A DNA stretch of 64,000 nucleotides from Dictyobacter formicarum (GTDB lineage: Bacteria; Chloroflexota; Ktedonobacteria; Ktedonobacterales; Ktedonobacteraceae). A program made the translations under genes and the position numbers. The notes under the pieces are model-generated. The model made no database searches. It saw only the letters and a program-made list of their open reading frames with translations, and had not been told where the DNA came from. Location of the stretch: contig NZ_BNJJ01000009.1 in the NCBI RefSeq assembly GCF_016587435.1, forward strand, positions 308,898 through 372,897. The letters are read 5' to 3'. Positions 20,311 through 37,843 of this stretch are shown here, piece after piece; within the stretch, counting starts at the first letter, position 1, and the number at the start of each line of letters is the position of its first letter.

Positions 20311-21252
20311 ATGTTTGCGGGGGGTCTGCAAATTGTATATTCGAAAGAGGATACATTGCAAACACAACGACGAAGCTGGAAAACTCCCCAGCGGTACAAC
20401 GTAGTGAGTTTTGTAGTGAGTGCTTGTTTTATCATCGTCTTTGGAATTGGCTTAGTTGGAGTAACGTCGCGAGCGAATATGGAGGGTGCGCACGCGCGAA
20501 CTATTGTTGCTTGCTCACAGGCTGATCGCATTCATACTGTAATCAGGAATGAGACACTTGCGAGTATTGCAGCGTATTATGGTCTTGGCGAACGGAGTAT
20601 TGTGGCCTATAATCACTTGGGTGGCCCCAATTCAATTTACATCAACCAGAGTATTTGTATTCCGAGCATACCGATAGAAGACATGAGTAGCGCTATTCAT
20701 ACGCATAAGTTGCTGCGTAAATTAGCGGCACCTATGGCACTGGTGAGGAAAACAGCTCACATGGATTTAGAGGAGCGCGATCAGCCAGCGGCTCCAGAAT
20801 TTCAAGCTGTGCCATCCCCAGAATCAGATTTACCTATCAGTTCAATTGTGCCTAGAAGAGCACGGGGGGGATTGGCAGTCCTGGCTCCATTCTCAATGGC
20901 GGTCAGCTTTCGCAATGCATATCCGACCGGGCAATGTACCTGGTGGGCCGCGGAGCGCTACTATCAATTGCACGATGTATTTGTGCCATGGATGAATGCT
21001 AATGCTGGAGGATGGGTCGATCGTGCCCAGCAATTTGGGTGGCATGTATCCAGCATTCCCACGGTTGGCTCGATTATCGTCCTGCAGGGGGGCGTGCAAG
21101 GATCCTCGCTCGTAGGACATGTTGCTGTAGTTGAACAGGTTCTTAACAATCAAGCAGTGATTGCCAGTTCGATGAACTGGGGAAACAATCCCAACGCGGT
21201 CACAAACACTGTATTCTATACTGGGACTGGCGTAGCTTTCATAAGTCAGTAA
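20311..21252 (+). CDS. LysM + CHAP domain secreted cell-wall hydrolase
   Basis: A 313-residue protein with an N-terminal membrane/signal segment (about residues 36-54), a LysM peptidoglycan-binding module (HTVIRNETLASIAAYYGL ... NQSICIPS, about 72-115) and a C-terminal CHAP domain (about 205-313) with the catalytic Cys in GQCTWWAAERYY and His in GHVAVVEQV. CHAP amidases or endopeptidases cleave peptidoglycan stem peptides, so a role in wall remodelling or spore/hypha separation fits. The start is not certain, as no clear RBS precedes the ATG at 20311; three 12-bp direct repeats lie just upstream. Confidence 0.88.
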   Translation: MFAGGLQIVYSKEDTLQTQRRSWKTPQRYNVVSFVVSACFIIVFGIGLVGVTSRANMEGAHARTIVACSQADRIHTVIRNETLASIAAYYGLGERSIVAYNHLGGPNSIYINQSICIPSIPIEDMSSAIHTHKLLRKLAAPMALVRKTAHMDLEERDQPAAPEFQAVPSPESDLPISSIVPRRARGGLAVLAPFSMAVSFRNAYPTGQCTWWAAERYYQLHDVFVPWMNANAGGWVDRAQQFGWHVSSIPTVGSIIVLQGGVQGSSLVGHVAVVEQVLNNQAVIASSMNWGNNPNAVTNTVFYTGTGVAFISQ

Positions 21253-21518: not shown

Positions 21519-21563
21519 TTGACATTACTTTGACTATTAGGTAAATTGGTGACTGTGTAGTCA
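21519..21563 (+). promoter_or_regulatory. sigma-70-type promoter with TetR-like operator, triad operon
   Basis: TTGACA (21519-21524), a 17-nt spacer, and TAAATT (21542-21547), followed at once by the palindrome TGACT-GTGT-AGTCA (21550-21563) covering the expected start site. The same arrangement recurs at 28295 and 32520. Repression by the TetR protein encoded at 28.4 kb is inferred. Confidence 0.75.
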
Positions 21564-21604
21564 TTGTTTGTTTGAGTTAGTCATAAAACTAGTGAGTTAG
21601 ACTT

Positions 21605-22492
21605 ATGGATACATATACACAGGCCTGGGCGGGTTCGCGTCCGGGATGCCTGATCTTTTTGCTTGATCAATCTGGCTCAATGGCTGATCCGTTTGGGATG
21701 GCTCAGGCCGGAGCGGGCCGGCGCAAATGTGATATGGTGGCAACGGTATTGAATAGCTTCTTAAATGAATTGATTGTTGCCAATACTGTGGCCCAGAGAG
21801 ATGGTACTACTGAGGTGCGACCACGTGCCGAAGTTGCGGTGCTGGGTTACGAAGGTATTTCGGTGGTGCCAGTTTTGCAGAGCAATCTTTCGGGTCAGAA
21901 CTTTATCAGCCTGCCGGAGTTGCAGATGAATCCGTTTGACATCGAGAGGCGTAAGCGCACAGAGATCGATGACACCGGCCAGGAAATCGAAATCACAGTA
22001 CCTTTTCCGGTCTGGGTGAAGGCAAAAGCCGGTGGTGGTACTCCCATGTGTATGGCTCTGGAACAGGCCCGTGACCTGGCGCAGGAATGGGCCGCTAACC
22101 ATCCTGACAGCTATCCGCCCGTTATTATTAATGTGACCGATGGTGTGGCAAGCGATGGTGATCCGTCGACGGTGGCGCGGGAGATCAGCGAAATTCGTAC
22201 TAATGATGGGCATGCCTTACTCTTCAATGTTCATATTACCGATTTCAACCTGGCGCCCCTGGTTTATCCAGCCAGCAGTGACGAGTTGCCCGCTGATGCA
22301 TATGCTCGTTTGCTGTTTGATATTTCCAGTGAGATTCCTGAGAGCAGCTGCCAGTTGTTGCGTTCGTTGCTGAGCAAGGACATTCAGCCAGGTGCACGTG
22401 GCATCATCTTTAATGGGGACGCCGCTTCGGTGCGCCAGATGTTTGTCTTTGCCAGTGTCCCGGCTACCCAGCCTTTGAATGTTAATGAATAG
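21605..22492 (+). CDS. TerY-like von Willebrand factor A domain protein
   Basis: A 295-residue protein whose vWA domain spans about residues 14-225. The metal site (MIDAS) is intact: DQSGS near residue 22, Thr in GGTPMC and Asp in VTDGVASDGD. vWA proteins of the TerY type pair with a PP2C phosphatase and a Ser/Thr kinase in phosphorylation triads that handle stress signals. The next two genes encode these two partners, 33 and 4 bp away, so the operon fits that plan. The domain probably binds a phosphorylated or metal-dependent partner in the cytoplasm. Translation starts 40-50 bp after the shared promoter. Confidence 0.88.
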   Translation: MDTYTQAWAGSRPGCLIFLLDQSGSMADPFGMAQAGAGRRKCDMVATVLNSFLNELIVANTVAQRDGTTEVRPRAEVAVLGYEGISVVPVLQSNLSGQNFISLPELQMNPFDIERRKRTEIDDTGQEIEITVPFPVWVKAKAGGGTPMCMALEQARDLAQEWAANHPDSYPPVIINVTDGVASDGDPSTVAREISEIRTNDGHALLFNVHITDFNLAPLVYPASSDELPADAYARLLFDISSEIPESSCQLLRSLLSKDIQPGARGIIFNGDAASVRQMFVFASVPATQPLNVNE

Positions 22493-22525
22493 GTGAACGC
22501 GCTACGCGTAAGAAACTGAATTTGT

Positions 22526-24694
22526 ATGTATGCACATGTAACCAGGTTGCAATGTTGGAAATCTGAGCACAATGATCAGACCTGTGAAGATGCCTATGGT
22601 ATAAACCTTGCTGAGGGGTTGTTGGTAGTTGCTGATGGGGTGGGAACAACGTTATTTTCCAATATCTGGGCCAGACATCTCGTAGATCATTTCTTAGCTA
22701 CGCCTCTTCTCAGCGAAGATCCTTTTGAGGTTGAGTGGTGGTTGCGCGTGGCACAGGAGCAATTTCAGCAGTCACTACCGCCTCTTGAGGGTATGCCCTG
22801 GAATGTGAAGCAAAAAGTACAGAGCGAAGGCAGCTTTTCGACTCTGGCAACGTTACGCATGCTTACGGCGGTCGGGACCGGTGAGACCTCTTATGTCCAG
22901 GCTAAAATGCTTGCTTTTGGAGATAGCTGTATCTTTATCCATAAAGCTGCCGCCCCGACTGTACTTTCTTTCCCACTGGCGCAGGCAACCGATTTCAATC
23001 AGCCGCCGATCAGTCTACCTTCAAAGTTGAGTGCGTTCCACCGCTATTTTCAGCGTGGCATGACGCATTGCATAAATCTGCATGCGGGAGATCGTGTGTT
23101 GCTGACGACGGATGCTGTGGCCCGTTGGATTATAGAGGCCGAAAATCGGGTGGGCGAGAGTGCTTTGAGCGCTTTTCATGCGATAGCAGAGCAGACGCCT
23201 GAGAGCTGGCCGGGTTTTGTTGGGGCCTGCCGTATGGCTGGATCGATGGTTGACGATGATAGTACGGCCATTCTGCTCTCGCTCAACGCGCATCCGATCG
23301 ATGGCAGCGAGACCATGCTGGGCACGACCATGGCACATCGACCGGAGGTGCGCGCCAGCCGGAGAGATGCCTTTCTACAGGCCGTGCAGGAGCAAAATAA
23401 AGAACTGGCCGCGATCACCTTCGGGGATGGCCAGGACCTGGAGCAAGAGGGCGTCTTTTTTCCGCATGAGCAGAAGCAGCAGGCTCGCCAGGTGGCCGAT
23501 GCGTTGCGCGAAATGCTAACTGTGCTGCGGCGCGAAATCAATGGTCCACAGGCCGCCCAAATGATTCTGCCAACGTGGAGGAAGTATGAGCCGCTGTTGC
23601 TGGAGGAGCCCTGTGCCGCCGCGGTACGCAAGACGTTGACGCGGCTCGGTATCGTGTTAGAGGCGCCAGTAGATCCTACCATGGTTGGCTGGGCGTTGCC
23701 GTCAACCACTGCCGCACCCATGCAAATAGTGTTTAAGAGCCAGGAGCAACTCCAACTGGAGCAGGCCTTGAGCGAGGCCCTGCGTTCAAATGATGATATG
23801 AACATTGTTGAAGCTACAGCCGCCCTGCAGAACTCTCCCTACGCTGGCTCGGTTAACCTTTCCAGGCGCGATCAGGAACGTATTCGGCAGGCTGCGCTGC
23901 GTGAGCAGGATCGTCTGCGCATACAACACGCCATTGCCAGCAAGCACATAGAGCAGATTGTTCTGGCCTCAGACCTGATGGGTCGTAACCTTACCTGCCT
24001 TTCGCAAGATGAGCACCAGATCGTGTTGCTGGCCCAGCACTGGGTGGATGCGCGCCGTGCTCAGGATGACCAGGCCGTGTTAGAGGCGGTCGAAGCCATC
24101 CTCGTTTCTCCCTATAGTGAGACACTCCTGTTTCCTGAGCAGGATAAAGCCTATCTGGCGCAGCTATGGCAGCAGAAGCAGCAGACAGTGGCGGCCACGC
24201 TGGAGGTTGTTAACCATAACGGTCCCGGCATCAGTGAAGCCTGGTTCAGGAAAGTGTGTGCAGTTAAGCGCATCTATTTAATGCACTGGATCTACCAGAA
24301 GATCAGCGATGTCGAACTAGAGCAGTCCACGCTGGATGACCTGGTCAATGCCCCCCTCATCCAGGAGGGTATTCGGGCTGTCAACAGCAGTGGCGTTGGT
24401 ATGCCGCTGTTACCAGAGATCCTGCTACCGGATATATGGCAAGCCTTTAAGAGCGATCCTATGGTTAACTATGGGTCCCTGCTACAAGAGCTGGAGCTGA
24501 CCGAAGGCCAGCTCAAAGATATCCTGCTCATCTTCCTGAATCGCCAACTTTTTGAGGATTACCTGCTCTGGGAGCAATCTACGCAACTTGACGATTGGTT
24601 ACAGGTCGCGCATGGTTATGATGCCGTTGAATTCAGGCAGCGCCTGGAACATGCTTGCCCCTGGGTGATGAATTTAAGCTGGTGGAAGGGATGA
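22526..24694 (+). CDS. PP2C-like phosphatase with C-terminal helical repeats
   Basis: A 722-residue protein. Residues 1-260 resemble a PP2C phosphatase: NDQTCEDAYG and VVADGVG supply the metal-binding Asp residues, AFGDS the central strand, and DDDSTAILL the last metal site. From about 290 on it is helical and repetitive, with units such as ALRSNDDMNIVEATAAL...SPY and RRAQDDQAVLEAVEAI...SPY that also occur in the kinase encoded next. The phosphatase would reverse phosphorylation by that kinase; the shared repeats probably let them dock to each other or to a common partner. The start ATG lies 33 bp after the vWA gene and no strong RBS is seen, so translation may be coupled. Confidence 0.8.
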   Translation: MYAHVTRLQCWKSEHNDQTCEDAYGINLAEGLLVVADGVGTTLFSNIWARHLVDHFLATPLLSEDPFEVEWWLRVAQEQFQQSLPPLEGMPWNVKQKVQSEGSFSTLATLRMLTAVGTGETSYVQAKMLAFGDSCIFIHKAAAPTVLSFPLAQATDFNQPPISLPSKLSAFHRYFQRGMTHCINLHAGDRVLLTTDAVARWIIEAENRVGESALSAFHAIAEQTPESWPGFVGACRMAGSMVDDDSTAILLSLNAHPIDGSETMLGTTMAHRPEVRASRRDAFLQAVQEQNKELAAITFGDGQDLEQEGVFFPHEQKQQARQVADALREMLTVLRREINGPQAAQMILPTWRKYEPLLLEEPCAAAVRKTLTRLGIVLEAPVDPTMVGWALPSTTAAPMQIVFKSQEQLQLEQALSEALRSNDDMNIVEATAALQNSPYAGSVNLSRRDQERIRQAALREQDRLRIQHAIASKHIEQIVLASDLMGRNLTCLSQDEHQIVLLAQHWVDARRAQDDQAVLEAVEAILVSPYSETLLFPEQDKAYLAQLWQQKQQTVAATLEVVNHNGPGISEAWFRKVCAVKRIYLMHWIYQKISDVELEQSTLDDLVNAPLIQEGIRAVNSSGVGMPLLPEILLPDIWQAFKSDPMVNYGSLLQELELTEGQLKDILLIFLNRQLFEDYLLWEQSTQLDDWLQVAHGYDAVEFRQRLEHACPWVMNLSWWKG

Positions 24695-24698
24695 TGTC

Positions 24699-26936
24699 AT
24701 GCCTGATCGTCTTGCCTATGATGAGGCGATGCTTTTTTCGGCGGTCCGGCTCAAGGTTACGGATCCCGATATAAAGCAAGGAAAAGTTGCTACACTGACC
24801 ACGCAGACTGCACTGGGACCCGTCGAACGTCCCTGGGGTATTGAAGGCGGCTTCGCGGTCGTCTATAAGTTTATGACCAGTAGTGGCAGGGCACGGGCCC
24901 TGCGCTGTTTCCGTGTGCCTATCGATGCCGATATGCGTTTTCGTTATGAGCGTATCGGCGCTTTCTTTCGCACTCATCTTCCCGAGATTACGGTAGACTG
25001 TTCTTACTATGCCGATGGCCTGGTCGTCAAAGAGCAGGGAGTGTCGCCGTCGCGTGCCTATCCAGTGATCGATATGGAGTGGGTCGATGGCCTTACCCTG
25101 CTCGAAATGGTGGACGAATGTTGCCGCCACCGCAATACAAAACATCTGCAGCAGTTGGTCCAGCAGTGGTCTCAGCTGATTGTCCAGCTGCGCCAATGTG
25201 GCATGGCCCATGGGGACCTGGCTGGCGTCAATGTGATGTGCCACGCCGATGGTCGCATGGTGTTGGTGGACTACGATGGTGTGTATTTACCCGAATTTGG
25301 ACCTGGCGCGGCCAATCTACAGCGCGTCTTGCTTGGTCAGCCCGATTATCAGCATCCACACATGGCGGCGCGTCCCTTTAGCGCCACGATGGATGATTTC
25401 TCGGCGCTGGTGATCTATACAGCTTTGCTGGCCCTCGCGCGACGACCTGAATTGTGGGAAACATATGCGAAGCGCGATGCGCAGGGAAAATTGCTGGATA
25501 CTAATCTTTTATTTACCCGTCAGGACTATCAAGATCCAGACCACTCCAGCCTGTGGCAGGCACTGGCAGGCTTGAAAGATGAACAGGTGGCCAGCGCGGT
25601 AGCCGCATTACGGCGCTCCTGCCAGCAACCAGTTGAGCAGGTGCGTTTCCCCTGGTACCTGCTCGAGCAGCCTTCTGAGTGTGGACCCCTGCCGTCTTTG
25701 TCTTCCCCAATTCCGAATGTGGCCAGGTCGGGTGTCGTGCCCGTACCACCTGTGGCGCAGCGCTCTCAGGTGGTACAGAGCGCCATCGGCAGCGGCACCG
25801 ACAGTCGTCCGCTTACGCGGTCCACCCCAGGCCTTACCTTGCGTGAGTGGGAACGTCAGTTCTCTGAACAGGTGGCCGCTTTCAAGCAGATATGCCAGAG
25901 TGAGGATGACGAGGCGATCGCCGCCGCCTATGAAGAGATCAGCAATTTTGGACATTTCGATGAGCTGCTCTTCCCGTCGGCGCTGCTGCAGCGTGCTCGC
26001 CTGGCGCAACAGCGTCGCAGCGCCCTGGCGCGTTTTCGCATGGCCCTGTCCACTAAGCGCCCCCTCCAGATGGCTACGGCCTACGATGCGTCCTTGCTGA
26101 ACGCCTCTCAGAGCGTGACGCCGCGTGAGAGATCGGTGCTGGCGCTGGCTCATGCTTTCCAACAGGCCTGTAGCGCGAACGATAGTGATGCCTTGCTGGC
26201 GGCCTATCAAGCGATTCAGGATTCGCCCTATCAACGCTCCTTCGCTTTTTCCGCCCGGGAGCTGGCGCTGGTCAGTACAGCTCAGGCTTACCTGACGATG
26301 CGGCACGAGGTACTGCAGGGGATTGCCAACGACGACGATGCGCTCATACGCCATGCCTACCAACCCGAGCTGGAGCAGCGTTTTACGGCGTTCTCGCCTG
26401 CGCAACAGCTACGCATCAAAGGAGCCCTGGCGTCCGCTGAGATTGAGCAGGCGCTCTCAGAGCATGACTACGCTGCGGCGCTGCTGCGCGCATGGCCATT
26501 GGCTGCCACGCAGCTCAGTAAGCTAACCTGCTTCAAACTACAGAAAGCGGCCCTGCGCTTGATCCGTCAGCAAGACCTGAGCGAGCTAAGCGCAGCCATC
26601 CGTCGGCGTGATGGCGCGACTTATCTCAGCCTCAGCTGGCGCTGGCCTGCTTATCCACTGGTGCAGCATGCCGTGATTGTCTGGAGTAGCGAACACTGGC
26701 CGCCCAGACTGGCCAACCACGTCAAGCAACCAACTGCTGAGCATCACCTCTGGGTTCAGCGCCCGAACGGCCAGGTTCAGGGCTCATGTGAGATCTTGCT
26801 GGATACGCCGGTCGGAGCGCATCTATATATCCAGGGCTACAGCGCTCTACGTGATTCCTGGGATGAACAGGAGCGCTGTTTCTTCGCAGATGGCTGCGCC
26901 CTGACCTCTCAGTGCAAACTGGCCGTTACAGCATGA
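24699..26936 (+). CDS. Ser/Thr kinase-like protein of the vWA/PP2C triad
   Basis: A 745-residue protein. Residues about 35-260 form a divergent kinase domain: glycine loop GIEGGFAVVYKF, catalytic loop HGDLAGVNVM (Asp and Asn kept), and LVDYDGVY in place of DFG. The beta-3 lysine position reads ALRCF, so Lys is replaced by Arg (as seen in the codon CGC), which would weaken ATP anchoring. A Ser/Pro linker leads to helical repeats (about 385-640) of the type CQSEDDEAIAAAYEEI and CSANDSDALLAAYQAIQDSPY shared with the phosphatase. It starts 4 bp after the phosphatase stop, showing a tight operon. It may be an active but atypical kinase or a pseudokinase switch. Confidence 0.82.
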   Translation: MPDRLAYDEAMLFSAVRLKVTDPDIKQGKVATLTTQTALGPVERPWGIEGGFAVVYKFMTSSGRARALRCFRVPIDADMRFRYERIGAFFRTHLPEITVDCSYYADGLVVKEQGVSPSRAYPVIDMEWVDGLTLLEMVDECCRHRNTKHLQQLVQQWSQLIVQLRQCGMAHGDLAGVNVMCHADGRMVLVDYDGVYLPEFGPGAANLQRVLLGQPDYQHPHMAARPFSATMDDFSALVIYTALLALARRPELWETYAKRDAQGKLLDTNLLFTRQDYQDPDHSSLWQALAGLKDEQVASAVAALRRSCQQPVEQVRFPWYLLEQPSECGPLPSLSSPIPNVARSGVVPVPPVAQRSQVVQSAIGSGTDSRPLTRSTPGLTLREWERQFSEQVAAFKQICQSEDDEAIAAAYEEISNFGHFDELLFPSALLQRARLAQQRRSALARFRMALSTKRPLQMATAYDASLLNASQSVTPRERSVLALAHAFQQACSANDSDALLAAYQAIQDSPYQRSFAFSARELALVSTAQAYLTMRHEVLQGIANDDDALIRHAYQPELEQRFTAFSPAQQLRIKGALASAEIEQALSEHDYAAALLRAWPLAATQLSKLTCFKLQKAALRLIRQQDLSELSAAIRRRDGATYLSLSWRWPAYPLVQHAVIVWSSEHWPPRLANHVKQPTAEHHLWVQRPNGQVQGSCEILLDTPVGAHLYIQGYSALRDSWDEQERCFFADGCALTSQCKLAVTA

Positions 26937-26993
26937 CTGTCGGTATGGCAACTGTACAGCAGAGAAAGCATAACCTGCTTTTTGAGGAACATT

Positions 26994-28298
26994 ATGATAG
27001 ATACTAATCACATAACAGAACTTTTGACGGAGATGACCCGGCGCATTGAGTCATTTGATACCGAGAGCGCCCAGCGCCTCAAGCTGCTGAACAATGCCAT
27101 CCAGGACGAGTCGAGCGGCGAAATCAATGCCTGGGCCGATGCCGACCTCTATCAGCTGATCGATCCAACGCTGGTATTGGAGCGCTATCACGGTTATCTC
27201 TCGCTTCCTACCCGGTCCGATGTTATTACCAGCTGGCGGCGACCGCTGCGTCTGCTGCTGCCTTTCCTTCCTTTACTATTGACCGGCCTGAGTCTGGCAC
27301 AGGCCCTGATGCTATATCCAGCCATCCTGTCTACCCCTGCCAATCGTGGCGGCCAATCCTTTCTTTTCTGGTGGCAGCAGGGCTTTAATGGTCAATTACC
27401 TGGCTGGTTGCGGGCCAGTAATGTAGTGCTGCTCGATGTGCTGCTGCTGCTGGCGTGGCTGCTCTTCTCGCTCTGGCTGACCATCGGACCGTCGCGACGC
27501 CAGCAGGAGCACCGGCAGGTGCAGGCCCGGCAGGAGCAGGAACTGCGCGCCTCCCTGACTCACATGCTGGCCCTGGTCACGCTCTACCTGGCGCAATATA
27601 AAAGCCAGCTCAGTACAGCCGAGAACCTGACCCTGGTGGCCCGGCGCATAGATGCCATGGGGAGCCGCCTGGAAAAGAATTTTGAGCAGGTTACCGGCAG
27701 GTTCGATAGCATGACCCGACAGGTGGCCACCCAATTTGATAACCAGGCTCAGCACATGACCGAGCAATTTGAGGATATGACGCGCCAGGTATCTGATCGC
27801 TTTACAGGCATGGCGCAGGAGCTCACACAGGGCTTCGATGGCGTAACGACGGATGTAGCCACCAGGTACGATAGCATGTCACAGCAGGTCATGCATCGTT
27901 TCGGCCAGGTGACTGATCGCATGCTGGAGCAACTGTTGGAGGGCAGTAAGTATCTGAAAGAGATTGGCAAGCTGACCGCGGGCGTAGTCAAAACGGCCGA
28001 CCATGTGCGGGCCGCCGCGACCATCCTTCAAGAAACCAACGGCGAGCTGGCTCTGCAGGCACAGAACCTGGTGGCCCCGACTGCAGACCTGGCCAGGCAG
28101 CAAGCATCGCTGATTACGGTCGCCTCGCGGTCGATGCAGTTACTGGAAGAGGTCTCCAACACAATGGCGGACCTCAGCCAGAAGCAGGACCGCTGGGGAA
28201 CCGACCTCAGAAACATCCTGGACACCCTGGATTTGACGGTTGAGCGTGCCGCCGAGCTGGCATTCAAATTCGCCAACAAAGAAAATACAAACTCTTGA
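26994..28298 (+). CDS. two-TM protein with hendecad coiled-coil repeats, fourth gene of the triad operon
   Basis: A 434-residue protein. A soluble N-terminus (1-80) precedes two membrane helices (about 84-112 and 142-165). Residues 237-313 hold seven consecutive 11-residue repeats with Phe/Tyr at 237, 248, 259, 270, 281, 292 and 303 (pattern F-D-x-M-T-x-Q-V-x-x-R), then a further helical region to the end. Hendecads make straight coiled coils or membrane-lying amphipathic helices. No named family is recognised. As the last gene of the vWA-PP2C-kinase operon it is a good candidate for the membrane anchor or target of the triad. Its stop codon lies inside the -35 box of the tetR promoter. Confidence 0.8.
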   Translation: MIDTNHITELLTEMTRRIESFDTESAQRLKLLNNAIQDESSGEINAWADADLYQLIDPTLVLERYHGYLSLPTRSDVITSWRRPLRLLLPFLPLLLTGLSLAQALMLYPAILSTPANRGGQSFLFWWQQGFNGQLPGWLRASNVVLLDVLLLLAWLLFSLWLTIGPSRRQQEHRQVQARQEQELRASLTHMLALVTLYLAQYKSQLSTAENLTLVARRIDAMGSRLEKNFEQVTGRFDSMTRQVATQFDNQAQHMTEQFEDMTRQVSDRFTGMAQELTQGFDGVTTDVATRYDSMSQQVMHRFGQVTDRMLEQLLEGSKYLKEIGKLTAGVVKTADHVRAAATILQETNGELALQAQNLVAPTADLARQQASLITVASRSMQLLEEVSNTMADLSQKQDRWGTDLRNILDTLDLTVERAAELAFKFANKENTNS

Positions 28299-28339
28299 CA
28301 GCGGGATGACTTTTTGGTAAATTGATGACTAGAGAGTCA
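28295..28339 (+). promoter_or_regulatory. promoter with TetR-like operator upstream of tetR
   Basis: TTGACA (28295-28300), 17-nt spacer, TAAATT (28318-28323) and the operator TGACT-AGAG-AGTCA (28326-28339). Same build as at 21519 and 32520, which implies autoregulation of the TetR gene 60 bp downstream. Confidence 0.75.
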
Positions 28340-28399
28340 TAAAGAAATTTGGCCAGTCAAAATTTAGTATTGCTGGTCATAAATCAACTGGTGTGAACA

Positions 28400-29056
28400 G
28401 TGAGTTACCTCCCAAAGGAATTGGTCGCAGAAAAAATGATACATCAATCGCTTAAAGAAAAGCAGAGGCAGGAACGGGAAGAGTTAATCCTGCAAGCAAC
28501 ACAGGAGTTATTGTTGGAGCGTGGCTACTACGATACCTCGATGGGTGAGATTGCCCAGCGTGTCGGGGTCGCCAAGGGAACGCTCTATCAACATTTTGAG
28601 AGCAAAGAAGCTTTAATGATTGTCCTCTTTAAGCGTGAATTCCATGATCTACAAGTTGCTACTGAGCGCATAGCTCAGATGTCGGTTGATGCGCAAGAAA
28701 AGATGTCCTTGATGATCGATACGCTGTGTTACCATCTGGCTGAGAAGCATCCACTGTTCTTTATCATTCGTAACGCGACTGATCTGGAAGCAGAAATCCA
28801 TCAGGAGATCAAAGAATATTTTAACGCGATGCGTGCGCAAATTGGCTTGATGTTGGATGAAGGGAAGGCCGAGGGCATTTTTAATGTTGCTCTTCCGACC
28901 GAAGTAATGCTAGAGGTCTTGTTTGGCATTATCGTCTCGCGCCTGTTCAAAAATTTTCACCAGGGCCTGCAAGTCAAATATGAGGATTTAGTTGGCCACC
29001 TGAAATGTATCTACTTCCACGGGATTACGGCACCCGCGCCTGCTCCTGCGGGCTAA
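28400..29056 (+). CDS. TetR/AcrR-family transcriptional regulator
   Basis: A 218-residue protein. The N-terminal TetR helix-turn-helix is clear (ILQATQELLLERGYYDTSMGE, then VAKGTLYQHFESKEAL), and the C-terminal helical domain binds ligand and dimerises. It probably represses its own promoter, the upstream triad operon and the second exporter cassette through TGACT-N4-AGTCA, and is relieved by an exported compound. The start is uncertain: GTG at 28400 or ATG at 28436, with AAAGGAA between them. The first exporter cassette follows in the same direction after 157 bp. Confidence 0.9.
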   Translation: MSYLPKELVAEKMIHQSLKEKQRQEREELILQATQELLLERGYYDTSMGEIAQRVGVAKGTLYQHFESKEALMIVLFKREFHDLQVATERIAQMSVDAQEKMSLMIDTLCYHLAEKHPLFFIIRNATDLEAEIHQEIKEYFNAMRAQIGLMLDEGKAEGIFNVALPTEVMLEVLFGIIVSRLFKNFHQGLQVKYEDLVGHLKCIYFHGITAPAPAPAG

Positions 29057-29212
29057 TGCCAGCTGTGTCGATAAATCAAATATACCGAAGGAACATTTAT
29101 TGCCAGATTTAGCAATGCCGCTTTCTGATTTAAAATGCATAAAAAATGTTCTCTGTCTATTCTATAACTACGTTCAAATGTATTGAAATTGCGTCGTAAG
29201 GAGTGACTCATT

Positions 29213-30841
29213 ATGCAAGTTTCTGCAGTATCTCAGCAGGAAAAAACGGGGGGACTTGCCTATAAGTGGGTTGTTGCGATAGTTGTAGTCTTTGGCCTGT
29301 TCATGACCATCCTGGATGGCACCATCGTGAACACTGCTATCCCACGATTACAAAACGCCTTCGGTGCTGATCTGACCAGTGTACAGTGGGTATTAACAGC
29401 TTATACGCTGGCCCAGGGTGTGGCCACCCCACTGACCGCCTACCTGGCAAGCCGGATTGGCAATAAGCGTTTATATCTTGTCGCACTAGCTGGCTTTACG
29501 TTGGGATCAGCGTTGTGCGGACTCTCCTGGAGTCTGGAGTCGTTGATTATTTTCCGTGTCATCCAGGCGGTGTTTGGATCTTTCCTTTCCCCGCTGGCGA
29601 TTACCTTGCTCTACATGGAGTTTCCTCCTGCGGAGCGTGGTACGGCCATGGGTTTCCTGGGTATTCCGATTTTGCTGGCGCCTGCCTTTGGTCCTACACT
29701 TGGTGGTTACCTGGTAACTTATTCCGACTGGCAGTTGATCTTCTATATTAACCTGCCGATTGGTATCGTTGGCCTGCTGTTAGGATTTTTCTTCCTGCGT
29801 GAAAGTCAGGGGCACCGCGTAGGCTTTGATTTTCTGGGCTTCGTGTTTGCGGCCGTTGGCCTGGCAGCAGTCCTCTATGGTTTGTCGGATGCCAGTACGG
29901 ATGGCTGGGGCTCAGTGATCGTGCTTGGCTGTATCATAGGTGGCCTGTTCTGCCTGACGATCTTTGTGGCGCTGGAACTGACACGCGTCAAACAAGATAA
30001 ACCTGTGCTCCTGGACCTGCGCGTCTTTGGCAATGGCGTGTTCACCACCAGTATCATTGCCAGTACACTGGTTATCTTCGCCCTGTATGGCGGCCTGTTC
30101 CTGATCCCGGTTTATCTGCAATCGCTACGTGGCGAATCGGCTTTCCAATCTGGCCTGGTCCTGTTGCCACAGGCATTTGCATCTATGCTAGCCGTCTTGA
30201 TCGGTGGTCGTCTAGTTGACAAGATTGGTGTACGTGCGGTTGTTATCCCTGGTTTGCTGATCATGGGATTTGCCATGTGGCTGCTGACCTCGATTAACCT
30301 GACCGAGCCGATTGGTTCTTTCCAGTATGCCCTGATCATTCGTGGCTTTGGCATGGGTCTGTGTTTACAGCCGCTGTCGGTCTCGATGCTCTCACAGATC
30401 AAGCCTAAGATGCTTTCGCAGGCATCATCCGTCAATACCACCTTCCGCTTTGTGATGAGCTCGCTGGCCGTATCGGTGATCTCGACCTATGTGACCTCAC
30501 GAGACAAACTGCACTATGCCCATATGGCGGAGATGGTCACTGCCAACTCGCCTACCGGCCAATTCATCACTCAGATGCAGGCGATCATGATGAGCCGGGG
30601 TTCATCCGCCACGGCCGCTTACGCGACTGCACTGAAGTATATCGCTGGACGGCTGCAATTGCAGGCATATGTGATGGCCATGCAAGATGCTTTCTGGGTG
30701 ACCCTGATCCTGGTTGGCGTGGCTGTGATTGCTTCCCTCTTTGTCACTAGCAACAAGAAGAAGCAGCTTGAGCAGATTGAGGAGCGGCCTTTGACCGCTG
30801 AAGAACAGCTGGCTAAAGAAGAGGCCTTGATGGCGGTATAA
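29213..30841 (+). CDS. MFS exporter, DHA2/EmrB family, cassette 1
   Basis: A 542-residue, 14-TM pump. TM1 carries LDGTIVNTAIPRL, motif A reads YLASRIGNKRLYL (weaker than the standard GxLaDrxGrk) and motif C GPTLGGYLV. The hydrophilic C-terminus is rich in Glu/Lys (EERPLTAEEQLAKEE). The next gene is a short EmrA-like adaptor, so the pair would form a tripartite-type exporter adapted to a monoderm envelope. AAGGAG precedes the ATG. It is strongly similar in order and sequence to the copy at 32747, showing tandem duplication. Confidence 0.92.
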   Translation: MQVSAVSQQEKTGGLAYKWVVAIVVVFGLFMTILDGTIVNTAIPRLQNAFGADLTSVQWVLTAYTLAQGVATPLTAYLASRIGNKRLYLVALAGFTLGSALCGLSWSLESLIIFRVIQAVFGSFLSPLAITLLYMEFPPAERGTAMGFLGIPILLAPAFGPTLGGYLVTYSDWQLIFYINLPIGIVGLLLGFFFLRESQGHRVGFDFLGFVFAAVGLAAVLYGLSDASTDGWGSVIVLGCIIGGLFCLTIFVALELTRVKQDKPVLLDLRVFGNGVFTTSIIASTLVIFALYGGLFLIPVYLQSLRGESAFQSGLVLLPQAFASMLAVLIGGRLVDKIGVRAVVIPGLLIMGFAMWLLTSINLTEPIGSFQYALIIRGFGMGLCLQPLSVSMLSQIKPKMLSQASSVNTTFRFVMSSLAVSVISTYVTSRDKLHYAHMAEMVTANSPTGQFITQMQAIMMSRGSSATAAYATALKYIAGRLQLQAYVMAMQDAFWVTLILVGVAVIASLFVTSNKKKQLEQIEERPLTAEEQLAKEEALMAV

Positions 30842-30955
30842 TAACCGCCCCGAGATTGAACTATTGAGGGAATATTCATCATTCCTCTATACATAGATAC
30901 ATTCGTTTTTATCTAAAATTTTTACTTTCTCATGTGAAGAAGGAGATCACGCACC

Positions 30956-31615
30956 ATGCGTCGCATGATTTTTGTACCGATCCTGGTTATGATCGCTATC
31001 CTGGCCATTGCCGGCGGCGTCGGTTACTGGCTCTTGAACAACTACAACTACTATCAGACTGATGATGCCCAGGTCAGTGGACATATTTTGAGCGTGAGTA
31101 GTCCCCAGGCGGGTCAGTTGGCTACTATGTCGGTCAAACTGGGCGATAAAGTAACTGCCGGTGAAGTTATTGGTACTATGACCACGGCTCCAGTCGCTCC
31201 AGCGCTCAAGGCTGCCACCATCAAAGTTACCAGCCCCATCGATGGCGCGATCGTCCAGGCCAATGGGGTCCAGGGGCAGTCGGTCACACCGGGAGCTACC
31301 CTGGCTCAGGTGGCCGATCTCAACGACCTGACGATCATGGCGTACGTTGATGAAGGTGCTATCCACAACGTGAAATTGAACCAGGACGTCGACGTGACCA
31401 TCGACGCCTATAGCGGTACCGCCTACAAGGGCCATGTGCAGAATATTGTCTCGGCGACCGCTGGCTCATTCTCGCTGCTGCCTTCCTCTGACAACGCCAG
31501 CGGCAACTTCACCAAAGTCTCGCAGCGTATTCCGGTAGTCATCTCATTGGGTGACAATGGCGGCAACAATATTGTTCCCGGCATGAGCGCCGAGGTCACT
31601 ATTCACCTGCACTAA
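30956..31615 (+). CDS. short EmrA/HlyD-like membrane fusion protein, cassette 1
   Basis: A 219-residue protein with an N-terminal TM helix (about 5-25), NYYQTDDAQVSGHI that is characteristic of EmrA, a biotinyl-lipoyl-like half-motif around VKLGDKVTAGEVIG, and a beta-barrel C-terminus. E. coli EmrA has about 390 residues with a long coiled-coil hairpin; here the hairpin between the lipoyl halves is nearly absent. AGAAGGAG precedes the ATG. It would couple the upstream MFS pump to the outer envelope. The copy at 34471 is highly similar. Confidence 0.9.
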   Translation: MRRMIFVPILVMIAILAIAGGVGYWLLNNYNYYQTDDAQVSGHILSVSSPQAGQLATMSVKLGDKVTAGEVIGTMTTAPVAPALKAATIKVTSPIDGAIVQANGVQGQSVTPGATLAQVADLNDLTIMAYVDEGAIHNVKLNQDVDVTIDAYSGTAYKGHVQNIVSATAGSFSLLPSSDNASGNFTKVSQRIPVVISLGDNGGNNIVPGMSAEVTIHLH

Positions 31616-31697
31616 TGCAGTCCCGGTCCGCCAGTTTCTCGCCGTCATCAACTGATGGCAAGGAGCTAGCGGATCAGGTTAAGATAAGGAGAGAAGA

Positions 31698-32237
31698 ATG
31701 ATCATTGGAGGACTCATCGCGATCGCTGTTCTCGCCTTGCTGGGGGCATTTTTCCTGTCACGTGGTGGTGATAAGAATGAGAAGCCGGCCAGGGTAGAGA
31801 GCGCGCAGCCAGCGACGCCAGCACAGTCTGAAGTTGACAAGAAGGCTACCATACCCGCTCCCGAGTTCAAAAATCAGAGCCAGCAGTTGGAATTCCCTGA
31901 AAATCCTAACCTGTCTGATGTCAGCCAGGAGCCTACAACTGCTATGTCTCAGGTCAATAATTATGGGGAGAGCACACAGTTCAATACCACGCCGGCGTAC
32001 TGGCCGCAGGAGCAACCTGTGCGCCAATCTGAGCCCGATGTGGCCGCCCTTAATCGCCGCTTATATGAGCTGGCCGGTCAGTTGCATATCCTGCAGCGTC
32101 AATCACGCGACATTGAGCAGGGCCTCATGCACCTGAGCGGCGTCATTGAGCACATGAACCGCAATAATCGCAATAATGGGTCGGACTCCCTGGTAGCCAG
32201 AAACTCTTCTGTACCAGCCATGCCCTACGGCGAATAA
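31698..32237 (+). CDS. single-TM coiled-coil protein, cassette 1
   Basis: A 179-residue protein: N-terminal TM helix (IIGGLIAIAVLALLGAFFL), polar disordered middle, and a conserved C-terminal helix YELAGQLHILQRQS..IE..L..LSGVIEHM, followed by an Asn-rich tail. The same two ends, with a divergent middle, occur in the copy at 35207. No family is recognised. It follows the short EmrA-like gene in both cassettes, so it is probably a third exporter subunit; supplying the coiled coil missing from the adaptor is a guess. AAGGAG supports the start. Confidence 0.75.
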   Translation: MIIGGLIAIAVLALLGAFFLSRGGDKNEKPARVESAQPATPAQSEVDKKATIPAPEFKNQSQQLEFPENPNLSDVSQEPTTAMSQVNNYGESTQFNTTPAYWPQEQPVRQSEPDVAALNRRLYELAGQLHILQRQSRDIEQGLMHLSGVIEHMNRNNRNNGSDSLVARNSSVPAMPYGE

Positions 32238-32287
32238 GCGCCCTCGCACGGGCTGCCGCTGATGCTCCAGTCCGTGTTTTTTTGTAT

Positions 32288-32410
32288 TTATATACTCTGG
32301 TGCATTTTTTGCATCGGTAGCGCACAGCGCTACCGATGCAAAAAATGCACCAGAGTATATAATAATATGCGAGCGCCGCAGGCGCGTAGCGTCAGGGGCC
32401 GAAGGCGGGA
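32288..32410. repeat. dispersed hairpin repeat, copy E (inverted orientation)
   Basis: A perfect 36-bp hairpin (32288-32323 / 32327-32362, 3-nt loop; core CTCTGGTGCATTTTTTGCAT) is followed by GAGCGCCGCAGGCGCGTAGC and GTCAGGGGCCGAAGGC, the reverse complement of the left flank in copies B and D. It follows the last gene of cassette 1. Confidence 0.75.
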
Positions 32411-32419
32411 ACCTCTAGC

Positions 32420-32480
32420 ATCATACTGTAATGTAGAAACAGATCACGATAGGTGATCTGTTTCTACATTACAGTATGAT
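32420..32480. terminator. 28-bp perfect hairpin between the two exporter cassettes
   Basis: Arms 32420-32447 and 32453-32480 pair exactly around the loop GATAG. It lies 40 bp before the cassette 2 promoter and would insulate it from upstream transcription. Confidence 0.6.
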
Positions 32481-32519
32481 GAACAACCGCGTTTAGCGGT
32501 AAAATTTCCCTCCTATCCC

Positions 32520-32564
32520 TTGACTTTGTTTTGACCTTCTGGTAAATTGATGACTGAGTAGTCA
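32520..32564 (+). promoter_or_regulatory. promoter with TetR-like operator, exporter cassette 2
   Basis: TTGACT (32520-32525), 17-nt spacer, TAAATT (32543-32548) and the operator TGACT-GAGT-AGTCA (32551-32564). Extra half sites (GTCAAA, TTAGTCAC) follow. A leader of about 180 nt would precede the MFS gene. Confidence 0.75.
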
Positions 32565-32746
32565 ATAAATCTTTGTGTAAGTCAAAAATAGCCTTTGGCG
32601 GTCAAATGCCAACTTGTTAGTCACTTACTTGATTGCTACCGATTGACATCTAACTCTGGAACGCCCCTGTATTTTGTGCTTTAAATTTCTCGATATGCAT
32701 ATAGCAATATCGCGTGTGTACAGCGTATCATAAGGAGTTTCTGTCT

Positions 32747-34372
32747 ATGCAGATGTCTGCACCTGCCGCGCCACGGAGCGGAGGATTGCCATATAAGTGG
32801 ATTGTGGCTTGCGTGGTGATATTTGGAATCTTTATGAGTATTCTAGATAGCACCATTGTGAATATCGCTATCCCACGGTTACAGAGTGCCTTTGGTTCCG
32901 ATCTCAACAGTGTGCAATGGGTGTTGACCGGCTATACGCTGGCCCAGGGTGTGGCCACGCCGCTCACCGCCTATCTGTCGGACCGGATCGGTATCAAGCG
33001 TTTCTATATGTTGTCGCTGGCAGGTTTTACATTGGGGTCCGCCCTGTGTGGCCTGGCCTGGAGTTTGCCGGTACTGATTGCTTTCCGCTTGCTGCAAGGC
33101 TTTATGGGAGCCTTTCTTTCCCCGCTCGCTATCACGCTGCTGTATCGTGAATTTGCCCCCTCGGAGCGTGGTACGGCCATGGGCGTGCTGGGTATTCCTA
33201 TTCTACTGGCGCCCGCGTTCGGTCCTACCCTGGGTGGCTACATCGTTACCTTTGCCGGCTGGCAACTCATCTTCTATATCAATGTCCCTCTGGGAATTAT
33301 CGGCCTGATCCTGGCGGCGATCTATATCCACGAAGCCCGCGCGGATACACACGCCAGTTTTGATATATCCGGTTTTGTGCTCTCAGCGATTGGCTTAGGC
33401 CTGTTGCTCTATGGACTATCTGATGCCAGCACCTCTGGCTGGACCTCTGGTCTTGTGCTGGGATGCTTGATCTCGGGTGGCCTGCTACTGGTTATATTCA
33501 TTTTTGTAGAACTGAGCCGGGCACGCCAGGGACTGCAGCCGCTGCTGGATGTGCGGGTGTTTAAAGATCACTCATTCTCAACCAGTAGCTTTGCCAGTAT
33601 CCTGGTCACCTTTGCCCTGTTTGGTGGCCTCTTCCTGGTCCCGGTCTACCTGCAAAATCTACGTCAGCTCAGCGCCTTCCAGGCCGGTCTGCTCCTGCTG
33701 CCACAGGCCTTTGCCTCCATGATTGCTGTGGTAGTTGGTGGCCGTCTGGTGGATCGCCTGGGCGTGCGGGCCGTGGTTATTCCGGGCCTGATTATCACCG
33801 CCATCGCCATGTGGCGCTTTACATTTTTAGATCTTTACATTCCCTATACATCGTTCCAATTGCTCTTAATTCTACGCGGTTTTGGCATTGGCCTCTGTAT
33901 GCAGCCATTGATGGTGTCGGCCCTGGCGCAGATCCGGCCGCGTATGCTGGCCCAGGCGACAGCGGTCAGTACCACCCTGCGTTTTGTGGGTAGCTCGCTG
34001 GCGGTCGCCATTGTGGCCACGCTGGTACAGAGTCGGACCAGCCTGCACTATGCACACCTGGCTGAAAAAGTCACACCAGACTCCCCGCTGGGACAACTGG
34101 TGCCGCGCCTGCAAGCTCTTTTTATCTCGCATGGAGCATCTACGCTGGCGGCTTATGGGACAGCCTTGAGCACCATCAGCGGCCTGGTGCGCCGGCAGGC
34201 GTATATCCTGGCGATACAGGATGCCTTCTGGCTTAGCCTGGTTCTGACGCTGGTGGCTGTGGTGGCGGCCTTCTTTGTTAGCTCCGGTCGGCGTAAAAAT
34301 GAGCCTGTCCAGCAAGAGCCTTTGAACGACGAAGAAGCGAAAGCGCGCGAAGAGGCCATGATGGCGGTTTAA
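32747..34372 (+). CDS. MFS exporter, DHA2/EmrB family, cassette 2
   Basis: A 541-residue, 14-TM pump closely similar to the one at 29213: LDSTIVNIAIPRL in TM1, YLSDRIGIKRFYM at motif A, GPTLGGYIV at motif C, and the same acidic end (EEAKAREEAMMAV). The ATG at 32747 with ATAAGGAG upstream is chosen over 32714. It has its own TetR-box promoter, unlike copy 1, so the two pumps may respond differently while sharing one regulator. Confidence 0.92.
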   Translation: MQMSAPAAPRSGGLPYKWIVACVVIFGIFMSILDSTIVNIAIPRLQSAFGSDLNSVQWVLTGYTLAQGVATPLTAYLSDRIGIKRFYMLSLAGFTLGSALCGLAWSLPVLIAFRLLQGFMGAFLSPLAITLLYREFAPSERGTAMGVLGIPILLAPAFGPTLGGYIVTFAGWQLIFYINVPLGIIGLILAAIYIHEARADTHASFDISGFVLSAIGLGLLLYGLSDASTSGWTSGLVLGCLISGGLLLVIFIFVELSRARQGLQPLLDVRVFKDHSFSTSSFASILVTFALFGGLFLVPVYLQNLRQLSAFQAGLLLLPQAFASMIAVVVGGRLVDRLGVRAVVIPGLIITAIAMWRFTFLDLYIPYTSFQLLLILRGFGIGLCMQPLMVSALAQIRPRMLAQATAVSTTLRFVGSSLAVAIVATLVQSRTSLHYAHLAEKVTPDSPLGQLVPRLQALFISHGASTLAAYGTALSTISGLVRRQAYILAIQDAFWLSLVLTLVAVVAAFFVSSGRRKNEPVQQEPLNDEEAKAREEAMMAV

Positions 34373-34470: not shown

Positions 34471-35127
34471 ATGCGGCGTATGGTTTTTGTTCCAATCTTA
34501 ATCATGGTTGCCATCCTGGCGATTGCCGGCGGTGTAGGATATTGGATCTGGAATAACTACAACTACTATCAGACCGATGATGCCCAGGTTAGCGGGCATA
34601 TCTTAAGCGTGAGCAGTCCCCAGGCCGGCCAGTTAATCACATTATCCGTCAAACTGGGTGATAAAGTAACCGCTGGCCAGACCATTGGTACCATCACTGT
34701 GGCGACCCCAACCACTGGCGCGAAAAACGATATAGATGTCACCAGCCCCATCGCGGGCACGATCGTTCAGGTGCCTGTGGCCCAGGGACAAACAGTTTCA
34801 CCAGGTCTGACATTGGCTCAGGTCGCCGACCTCAGCAATCTGACGATCACCGCTTATGTGGATGAAGGCGCCATCAATAACATTAAGGTCAATCAAGATG
34901 TCGATGTGAGCATCGATGCCTTTAGCGGCACCAATTATAAGGGCCACGTCCAGAATATTGTCTCGGCGACCGCCGGTTCATTCTCGCTGCTACCTTCCTC
35001 CGACAATGCCAGCGGCAATTTCACCAAGGTTTCGCAGCGCATACCCGTTGTCATTAGCCTGGATGGTGTAGGTAACGACAATGTCGTACCAGGTATGAGC
35101 GCAGAAGTCATCATTCACGTGCACTAA
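34471..35127 (+). CDS. short EmrA/HlyD-like membrane fusion protein, cassette 2
   Basis: A 218-residue paralogue of the protein at 30956 with the same TM anchor, NYYQTDDAQVSGHI, VKLGDKVTAGQTIG and a C-terminus that is almost identical (FSLLPSSDNASGNFTKVSQR). It lacks the long helical hairpin of EmrA. Differences cluster between the lipoyl halves. GAAGGAGAG precedes the ATG. Confidence 0.9.
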   Translation: MRRMVFVPILIMVAILAIAGGVGYWIWNNYNYYQTDDAQVSGHILSVSSPQAGQLITLSVKLGDKVTAGQTIGTITVATPTTGAKNDIDVTSPIAGTIVQVPVAQGQTVSPGLTLAQVADLSNLTITAYVDEGAINNIKVNQDVDVSIDAFSGTNYKGHVQNIVSATAGSFSLLPSSDNASGNFTKVSQRIPVVISLDGVGNDNVVPGMSAEVIIHVH

Positions 35128-35206: not shown

Positions 35207-35713
35207 ATGTTCATTATTGGTGGACTCATTGCTGTAGCTATTGTGGCCTTGCTGCTCGCCTTTTTTCTGGCCCGAGGAGACAGTAGTGAGCGTAGAAAGC
35301 CCGAGCTACCCAATAACCAGGCCCAGACCGAGCTGATGGCGGCCCAGACCGCTGGCTCACCCAGCGCGACCGCTCCTACTGCCGAGATGACTCCTGTCAT
35401 GGAGCGCAAGCCTGCAATGGCCAACAATCAGGGAAGCTATGCTGATCGAACTGAAGAGACGACGGGCTTTTCCCGATCGGGGGTCAGCCTGGCTCCTCAC
35501 TATTATGACGAGGACACCAGCATCCAGTCTCTTAACAGACAGGTTTATGAGCTAGCTGGCCAGCTGCGCGCCCTGCAGCGTCAATCGCAAGAGATCGAGC
35601 GCAGCCTCGTAGAGCTTAGTGGCGTCATCGAAAGGATGGATGAACGCGGCCGTCACGACGCATCATACTATCGCCCTGTCACCTACGGTCCTGATGAAGT
35701 ACATAAAGACTAG
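35207..35713 (+). CDS. single-TM coiled-coil protein, cassette 2
   Basis: A 168-residue paralogue of the protein at 31698: TM helix FIIGGLIAVAIVALLLAFFL, variable polar middle, and the conserved helix YELAGQLRALQRQS..IE..L..LSGVIERM. Conservation of the two ends after duplication points to function in membrane placement and helix pairing. GAAAGGAAG precedes the ATG. Confidence 0.75.
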   Translation: MFIIGGLIAVAIVALLLAFFLARGDSSERRKPELPNNQAQTELMAAQTAGSPSATAPTAEMTPVMERKPAMANNQGSYADRTEETTGFSRSGVSLAPHYYDEDTSIQSLNRQVYELAGQLRALQRQSQEIERSLVELSGVIERMDERGRHDASYYRPVTYGPDEVHKD

Positions 35714-37213: not shown

Positions 37214-37843
37214 ATGTCTAGGCGCAACATTACGCATAAATTAGTTTCTATTGCTGCCGGAGCAGCTTTGAGCGGATTCCTGGCCTTTGTTCCTGCGCAG
37301 GTTGCAATTCATGCTGCTCCAGTACCTCCTGGCGGTGGATATTATGCTGCAACCCACCCTGGCACAGCAGGCTATCCTGGCGCAGCACGCTATCCTGGTA
37401 CAGTAGGCTATCCTGGTACAGTAGGCTATCCTGGCACAGTAGGCTATCCCGGCACAGCAAGCTACCCTGGCGCAGCAGGCTATCCTGGCACAGTGGGCTA
37501 TCCCGGCGCAGCGCGCTATCCCGGCGCAGCACGCTATCCTGGCGCAGCACGCTATCCTGGCGCAGCGCGCTATCCTGGCACAGCGCGCTATCCCCGTACA
37601 GCAGGCTATCCCGGCGCAGCACGCTACCCTGGAGCAATAGGCTATCCTGGTGCAGTGGGCTACCCCGGCGCAGCAGGCTATCCTGGCGCAGCAGGCTATC
37701 CTGGCGCAGCAGGCTATCCTGGCGCAGCGCGCTACCCTAGCACAGCAGGCTACCCTAGCACAGCAGGCTATCCCGGCACAGCAGGCTATCCCGGCACAGC
37801 AGGCTATCCTGGCGCAGCCCATCGTGGAGTTGCTCACCACTAA
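37214..37843 (+). CDS. secreted YPG hexapeptide-repeat protein
   Basis: A 209-residue protein. Residues 1-34 form a signal peptide (positive start, hydrophobic core, AIHAA cleavage region). Residues 54-203 are 25 tandem hexapeptides of the form Y-P-(G/S/R)-(A/T)-(A/V/I)-(G/R/S/H), and the end is RGVAHH. Regular Pro-Gly turns with small residues recall elastin- or abductin-like structural proteins, and the Tyr at each unit could stack or cross-link. A structural or surface role is inferred. No known family is recognised. GGAGGG supports the start. Confidence 0.8.
   Translation: MSRRNITHKLVSIAAGAALSGFLAFVPAQVAIHAAPVPPGGGYYAATHPGTAGYPGAARYPGTVGYPGTVGYPGTVGYPGTASYPGAAGYPGTVGYPGAARYPGAARYPGAARYPGAARYPGTARYPRTAGYPGAARYPGAIGYPGAVGYPGAAGYPGAAGYPGAAGYPGAARYPSTAGYPSTAGYPGTAGYPGTAGYPGAAHRGVAHH
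37373..37822 (+). repeat. 18-bp tandem repeat, 25 units, inside the YPG gene
   Basis: Units follow TATCCTGGCGCAGCAGGC with third-base and A/V, G/R variation. The array is in frame (18 bp = 6 codons) and could expand or contract by slippage without frameshift. Confidence 0.9.

Follow-up and report, generated by a model that had tools for sequence, protein, structure and literature searches.

Results

Three promoters of one design

Within a 64,000-nucleotide stretch of the Dictyobacter formicarum genome (positions 308,898 to 372,897 of contig NZ_BNJJ01000009.1; hereafter the window), three promoters of one design precede an operon encoding a von Willebrand factor A (vWA) protein, a PP2C-type phosphatase and a protein kinase (the triad), a gene for a TetR-family regulator, and the second of two drug exporter cassettes. 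We propose that these transcription units probably constitute a local regulon of three operons, in which the autoregulated TetR protein would repress both exporters as well as the TerY-P-like triad until it is released by a ligand. The sequence itself, its conservation, the phasing of its elements and its association with one TetR subfamily are direct observations.

The promoters extend over positions 21519–21563, 28295–28339 and 32520–32564, with the –35 boxes TTGACA, TTGACA and TTGACT, respectively. In each case, a 17-bp spacer leads to the –10 box TAAATT, which is followed by two bases (GG, GA and GA) and the palindrome TGACT-N4-AGTCA, whose arms are identical and whose N4 reads GTGT, AGAG and GAGT. 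The initial annotation had described exactly this design. A search of the window for TTGAC-N18-TAAATT-N2-TGACT-N4-AGTCA with up to three mismatches returns the three sites, compared with a mean of 0.00 in 100 shuffled sequences, and the exact palindrome alone also occurs three times (shuffle mean 0.03, maximum 1; 100 shuffles). All three promoters are among the 19 listed by a general promoter and terminator scan of the window (13.7 expected). With two mismatches allowed, the bare palindrome is found 23 times against 23.4 expected. Because this is chance level, the motif is diagnostic only when exact and anchored to a promoter. Between positions 21200 and 35800, no Rfam family reached the threshold, and a role at the RNA level is not supported.

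Bare exact sites number 6–9 per genome in genomes G001–G005, compared with 3–8 for a reversed-pattern control, and 1–2 compared with 2–4 in two Thermogemmatispora genomes; several of the matches inspected in relatives fall within open reading frames (ORFs). Since its frequency is about that of the control, the bare palindrome was dropped as a genome-wide marker.

Occurrence of the promoter design in Ktedonobacteria

The search of relatives for the promoter-anchored motif, which the initial annotation had suggested, was carried out in 47 genomes of the class using the strict pattern TTGACN{17,19}TAANNTNNTGACYN4RGTCA, with the reversed pattern as a control. It yielded 60 sites in 23 of the genomes and none for the control. 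A motif scattered at random away from promoters, which had been named as the result that would speak against a regulon, is thus what we see for the bare palindrome, but not for the promoter-anchored design.

By coordinates, 42 of the 60 sites are located at most 400 nucleotides upstream of a tetR gene of one subfamily. The remaining 18 precede MFS exporter genes or cassettes (14 sites) or the vWA-PP2C-kinase operon (four sites, in G002, G003, G004 and G005). Those at exporters comprise four second cassettes (G001–G004, with only the S gene retained in G004), five lone MFS genes whose products are 31–66% identical to the exporters of the window, and five MFS-HlyD-S operons. Among all 60 sites, 42 of them assigned by coordinates, we saw none before any gene kind other than tetR, MFS exporters and the triad, which is therefore the only target seen that encodes neither transport nor regulation. 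In a phylum-wide sample of 400 genomes, 353 of them outside the 47, two further sites were found compared with one for the control. A reading of these two as chance matches was rejected, since both precede a related TetR gene (31% and 37% identity). Taken together, the promoter design is essentially a feature of the Ktedonobacteria.

Conservation of the locus in relatives

A scan of genome contigs gave 22 loci, of which the best ten (L001–L010) were checked for the site and eight of these for gene order. The relatives considered below are D. aurantiacus (L001), D. kobayashii (L002), D. vulcani (L003), D. arantiisoli (L004) and Ktedonobacteria bacterium brp13 (L005). The order LysM protein-vWA-PP2C-kinase-X4-TetR-MFS1-HlyD1-S1-MFS2-HlyD2-S2 is kept in the first three, with additional ORFs between kinase and X4 in D. 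aurantiacus. D. arantiisoli lacks MFS2 and HlyD2 and still carries the third site before S2, and brp13 has a second TetR gene (L005:14214) between the third site and MFS2. The assignment of the promoters to the triad operon, tetR and exporter cassette 2, as originally annotated, extends to all six genomes: the site heads each of the three operons, giving 18 promoters, with one mismatch in the tetR promoter of D. arantiisoli. No exact site was found at L006–L010; at the Thermogemmatispora loci L007–L010, tetR is preceded by a promoter with the variant TGACTNNNNAGTTC.

Phased half-sites around the central palindrome

A further feature was absent from the initial annotation: at every promoter, outward half-sites flank the central palindrome in a phased array. 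Relative to the initial T of the central TGACT, TGAC at –19 and GTCA at +30 are present in all 18 cluster promoters. Six of six tetR, five of six mfs2 and none of six vWA promoters have a third outward half-site, at +49/+50, and one at +69/+70 is present in 4/6, 1/6 and 0/6 of the mfs2, tetR and vWA promoters, respectively. The reach of the arrays in the window is graded, from +30 (vWA) through +50 (tetR) to +69 (mfs2), and the vWA array is kept in the orthologous promoters of all five relatives.

Sixty-three distinct promoters of this type were collected from all loci. TGAC is located at –19 in 49 of them and at –20 in nine, GTCA at +30 in 33 and at +29 in 12; half-sites of the opposite orientation exceed 6/63 at no listed offset. 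The –19 half-site looks like a second operator, because in 31 of the 49 promoters it has a degenerate partner, GGTAA, which overlaps the –10 box. Where both spacings are exact (28 promoters), the strongest columns are the half-site bases and the –10 box, although only their neighbors are informative, since this set was picked for the –19 and +30 half-sites. A first array pattern was too narrow, matching eight places with up to three mismatches, just three of them cluster promoters, and was replaced by the promoter-anchored pattern.

We also compared column conservation across the six genomes. In the vWA promoters, 18/18 half-site columns are invariant against 10/90 others (Fisher p = 9e-14), a p value that, like any from this comparison, is descriptive only, because the motif itself was used to find the sites and the genomes are relatives of one another. 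The corresponding figures are 17/18 against 19/90 for the tetR promoters and 18/18 against 17/90 for the mfs2 promoters.

Association with one TetR subfamily

An alignment search (E ≤ 1e-15) in the 47 genomes delimited the subfamily of the TetR protein, giving 82 hits of at least 130 bits, with the next hit at no more than 111. The upstream set consisted of 80 subfamily tetR genes and that of the window, one gene being present twice, i.e., 82 entries of about 400 nucleotides each. TGAC-N6-GTCA occurs upstream of 58 of the 82 entries (57/81 without the duplicate), compared with 0.4/82 in shuffles, and upstream of none of 17 lower-scoring tetR genes of our choice. The palindrome over the gene's own promoter (28326–28339) recurs at all five orthologous loci, once with a single mismatch, in a test on sequence only. 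Relatives place the start codon at the ATG near 28436 rather than at the GTG at 28400, and the protein is 85–87% identical to those of D. aurantiacus and D. kobayashii, its nearest named relatives. In the recognition-helix stretch GVAKGTLYQHF, nine of 11 positions are invariant across 14 aligned TetR proteins. Very probably, this subfamily uses TGACT-N4-AGTCA as its operator. The initial idea of a TetR operator gains from this association (58/82 versus 0/17), as it does from the three-promoter arrangement in six genomes.

Four Dictyobacter genomes (L040–L043) contain another subfamily tetR gene with its own array, opposite a small divergent gene that by eye resembles Ser/Thr kinases. This would be a second kinase adjoining this operator family.

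Genes of the cluster

The features of the cluster are listed in the table.

Table. Promoters and genes of the proposed regulon (window coordinates).
Feature	Position	Strand	Evidence or sequence
vWA-PP2C-kinase-X4 promoter and operator array	21519..21583	+	TTGACA, TGAC at –19, TAAATT, central TGACTGTGTAGTCA (21550–21563), GTCA at +30
TerY-like vWA protein	21605..22492	+	PADLOC TerY 219 bits; Pfam VWA 25.7 bits, cut-off 23.8
PP2C-type phosphatase, long C-terminal extension	22526..24694	+	PADLOC PP2C 81 bits; Pfam PP2C_2 19.8 bits, under cut-off 24
Protein kinase, helical repeats and C-terminal beta domain	24699..26936	+	PADLOC STK_OB 147 bits, kinase part only; AlphaFold2
X4, membrane segments and long coiled coil (by eye)	26982..28298	+	Last gene of triad operon; orthologues L001–L005, L078
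tetR promoter and operator array	28295..28379	+	TGAC at –19, central TGACTAGAGAGTCA (28326–28339), GTCA at +30, +50
TetR-family regulator	28436..29056	+	Pfam TetR_N (PF00440) 61 bits, cut-off 24; longer ORF starts at 28400
EmrB-type (DHA2) MFS exporter, cassette 1	29213..30841	+	TIGR00711 397 bits, cut-off 230
HlyD/EmrA-like adaptor, cassette 1	30956..31615	+	Pfam HlyD_3 60.8 bits; TIGR00998 118.8 bits, below cut-off 390.8
S1, small protein, one N-terminal membrane segment and coiled-coil end (by eye)	31698..32237	+
Cassette 2 (mfs2) promoter and operator array	32520..32623	+	TGAC at –19, central TGACTGAGTAGTCA (32551–32564), GTCA at +30, +50, +69
EmrB-type MFS exporter, cassette 2	32714..34372	+	TIGR00711 405 bits, cut-off 230
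HlyD/EmrA-like adaptor, cassette 2	34471..35127	+	Repeat of cassette 1 adaptor DNA; orthologues in relatives
S2, paralogue of S1	35207..35713	+

The vWA protein has a complete metal ion-dependent adhesion site (D21-S23-S25, T146, D179), which is invariant in 9/9 aligned sequences. In the kinase, we identified the motifs HGDLAGVN and DYDG, conserved as HGDLAxxN/DYDG without exception among aligned relatives. The match to the STK_OB profile is confined to 13–287 of 562. An AlphaFold2 model (pLDDT, the predicted local distance difference test, 78; pTM, the predicted template modeling score, 0.44) comprises a kinase domain, helical repeats and a beta domain at 627–742. The 50 Foldseek matches listed for this model were all protein kinases and gave no identity for the C-terminal domain. 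Eight aligned kinases show no conserved C-terminal cysteine pairs that could indicate a zinc ribbon, and the C-terminal half of the kinase in the window differs from that of TerY-P. The label "TerY-P-like" in the initial annotation therefore holds for the vWA, PP2C and kinase domains recognized by PADLOC, but not for the rest of the kinase: as judged from profile matches and the structural model, the triad is TerY-P-like without being TerY-P proper, because the kinase lacks the defining zinc ribbon. At the place of the beta-3 lysine, all eight aligned kinases have an apparently invariant arginine (R69, ALRCF), with the catalytic loop intact.

Orthologues of X4 are 47–75% identical in L001–L005 and 40% in L078. 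Its PADLOC matches to ZorA are weak (best E 8.7e-5), lie mainly on the coiled-coil tail and were not taken as membership; they are probably due to coiled-coil composition. The two exporter cassettes are a duplication, with blocks of 70–79% DNA identity. Within it, the adaptor DNA of cassette 2 is a direct repeat of that of cassette 1, 78–79% identical in two blocks. An S-type gene follows every MFS-HlyD cassette inspected.

We examined triads at other loci in 12 stretches of 11–20 kb each (L078–L089), taken from the better-scoring kinase hits only. TGACYN4RGTCA is present in none of the 12, and no ORF there matches this TetR protein; five of them contain distant triads (vWA 30–40% identical). 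At L078, HlyD and S genes directly precede the vWA gene without a TetR array and are themselves preceded by a MarR-like gene (by eye), so that the pairing of pump and triad also occurs under a different promoter. At this locus, an inserted segment of roughly 6 kb with a gene resembling site-specific recombinases (by eye) splits the kinase gene (L078:8594-17561). At L080–L084 (Thermogemmatispora-type), a distinct gene with CxxC motifs comes after the triad, as if a zinc-binding part had its own gene in these genomes; in the longer stretches, the gene of a large protein and one resembling X4 come after the triad as well.

A secreted-looking LysM-type protein (20311–21252; domain by eye) is encoded directly upstream of the triad in the window and in all five relatives. 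In the window, its gene is not preceded by an operator of the TGACT-N4-AGTCA type. Between S1 and the third promoter are two perfect inverted repeats, 32288–32362 (36-bp arms, 3-nucleotide loop) and 32419–32481 (29-bp arms, 5-nucleotide loop), with terminators or small mobile hairpins as candidate readings. The ORF at 37214–37843 is composed almost entirely of GYPGA/RYPGA-type repeats.

Discussion

A proposed regulon and its alternatives

In our model, a TetR dimer would bind TGACT-N4-AGTCA just downstream of the –10 box, probably over the transcription start. Within the –35/–10 spacer, TGACY-N4-GGTAA would serve as a weaker additional operator whose right half merges into the –10 box. Since the outward downstream half-sites recur roughly every 20 bp, or two helical turns, further repressor could be added cooperatively, a mode of loading that we liken to the extended operator of EthR as presented in passages of PMC9210681. 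TetR would thereby repress three operons: its own (tetR-emrB-hlyD-S1), that of the second exporter (emrB-hlyD-S2) and that of the triad (vWA-PP2C-kinase-X4). Release of TetR, and with it joint induction of export and triad, would be brought about by a small toxic compound, probably one of the substrates of the pumps, and the graded arrays (vWA < tetR < mfs2 in reach) could yield graded repression. Binding, repression, start site, cooperativity, ligand and graded response are what we infer.

Several observations weigh against this reading. The six genomes are related and hence not independent tests, and the vWA promoter of D. aurantiacus retains its operator without a correctly spaced TTGAC –35 box. 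Downstream of the palindrome, the half-sites stand without a conserved partner, an unusual arrangement for a TetR dimer. In the upstream set, 24/82 entries show no TGAC-N6-GTCA in the stretch read: five are the last genes of cassettes with the site before the first gene, six (Thermogemmatispora and two other genomes) carry TGACTNNNNAGTTC instead, two were read over less than 400 nucleotides, and 11 are unexplained. Finally, the same genomes encode TetR paralogues with the same operator, which could act instead or additionally; because of this sharing, control of all three operons by a single regulator with a single ligand is a hypothesis.

The last point leads to an alternative that we consider unlikely, in which the operators are real but common to several paralogous TetR proteins, so that the triad would be under a repressor network with different ligands instead of the neighboring TetR alone. 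Other tetR paralogues with the same promoter design do exist in the same relatives (L040–L043, L047, L033), brp13 has its second TetR at the third site, and the helix-turn-helix is nearly constant in the 14 aligned proteins. Against it, the three sites remain beside this TetR gene in six genomes, and the L040–L043 paralogues differ in the recognition helix (YLHF versus YQHF) as well as in the sequence around the –10 box. That the promoters resemble each other by chance or by plain descent of duplicated DNA is hardly credible. Since cassettes 1 and 2 are duplicated, two of the three promoters could indeed be alike by descent, but the large repeat blocks include no triad gene, and the bases between the half-sites have diverged where the half-sites have not. 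The shuffle expectations of 0.03 and 0.00, the class survey and the conservation of half-site columns also contradict this explanation.

A different question is whether co-regulation implies joint function. The triad, perhaps a defense module, and the pumps might share a switch through neighborhood and promoter copying, without functional coupling; this is compatible with a regulon of three operons and disputes joint function only. We regard it as a serious possibility, if one we are inclined to doubt. Triads do occur elsewhere without pumps, and operator-bearing pump cassettes without triads, but the vWA promoter is conserved site-specifically, and at L078 the hlyD and S genes stand immediately before a homologous triad with no TetR site.

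Comparison with known systems

As in TetR-autoregulated efflux operons, the regulator adjoins an exporter and a palindrome covers its own promoter. According to passages of PMC9210681, the 55-bp operator of EthR is bound by a homo-octamer of the protein, and the site of RolR is TGAAC-N4-GTTCA. The extended multi-copy operator is shared with EthR as described there, but here the half-sites point outward from a central palindrome with a 19–20 bp period, and the operator is shared with a phosphorylation operon. The best NCBIfam model for TetR is that of Bacillus-type FadR (NF053878; 67.2 bits, far below the cut-off of 200), and 3whb, a "fatty acid metabolism regulator", is among the top PDB chains by profile; unlike FadR, however, this TetR gene adjoins exporters, not fatty-acid genes.

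The adjacency of a TerY-like vWA protein, a PP2C phosphatase and a protein kinase in one operon resembles TerY-P and the kinase-OB-fold antiphage variant. The TerY-P kinase is fused to a zinc ribbon, as stated in a passage of PMC11090510, whereas the kinase described here carries helical repeats and a beta domain, and its operon has a TetR-type operator with exporters alongside. Similarity to EmrAB is indicated by the EmrB model and the adjacent HlyD-like adaptor; in contrast to EmrAB, the adaptor is short (219 amino acids; that of cassette 1 below the EmrA cut-off) and each cassette inspected has an extra small coiled-coil membrane gene, S. In titles, abstract openings and passages of PMC11090510, PMC9210681, PMC3511530 and PMC6497799, we found no report of a triad paired with TetR-controlled exporters.

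Biological meaning

One speculative reading, to which we give little credence at present, is a sensor of chemical threats that readies an immunity or stress module based on phosphorylation. On this view, a xenobiotic such as a competitor's antibiotic would release one TetR and thereby induce export and triad, the kinase may act on the S and X4 coiled-coil membrane proteins to gate the pumps, and the graded arrays would let triad, tetR and second pump respond at different repressor levels.

The results define a sharp sequence-level operator code for a regulator subfamily in the Ktedonobacteria, little-studied soil bacteria with antibiotic-making potential. They also connect drug exporters and a defined repressor of the small-molecule type with a TerY-P-like phosphorylation triad, so that the inducing signal of such a triad becomes directly testable by a reporter. 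In Dictyobacter and one relative, the same switch stands before a drug-pump repressor, two export sets and a phosphorylation set, and one chemical signal may induce all of them.

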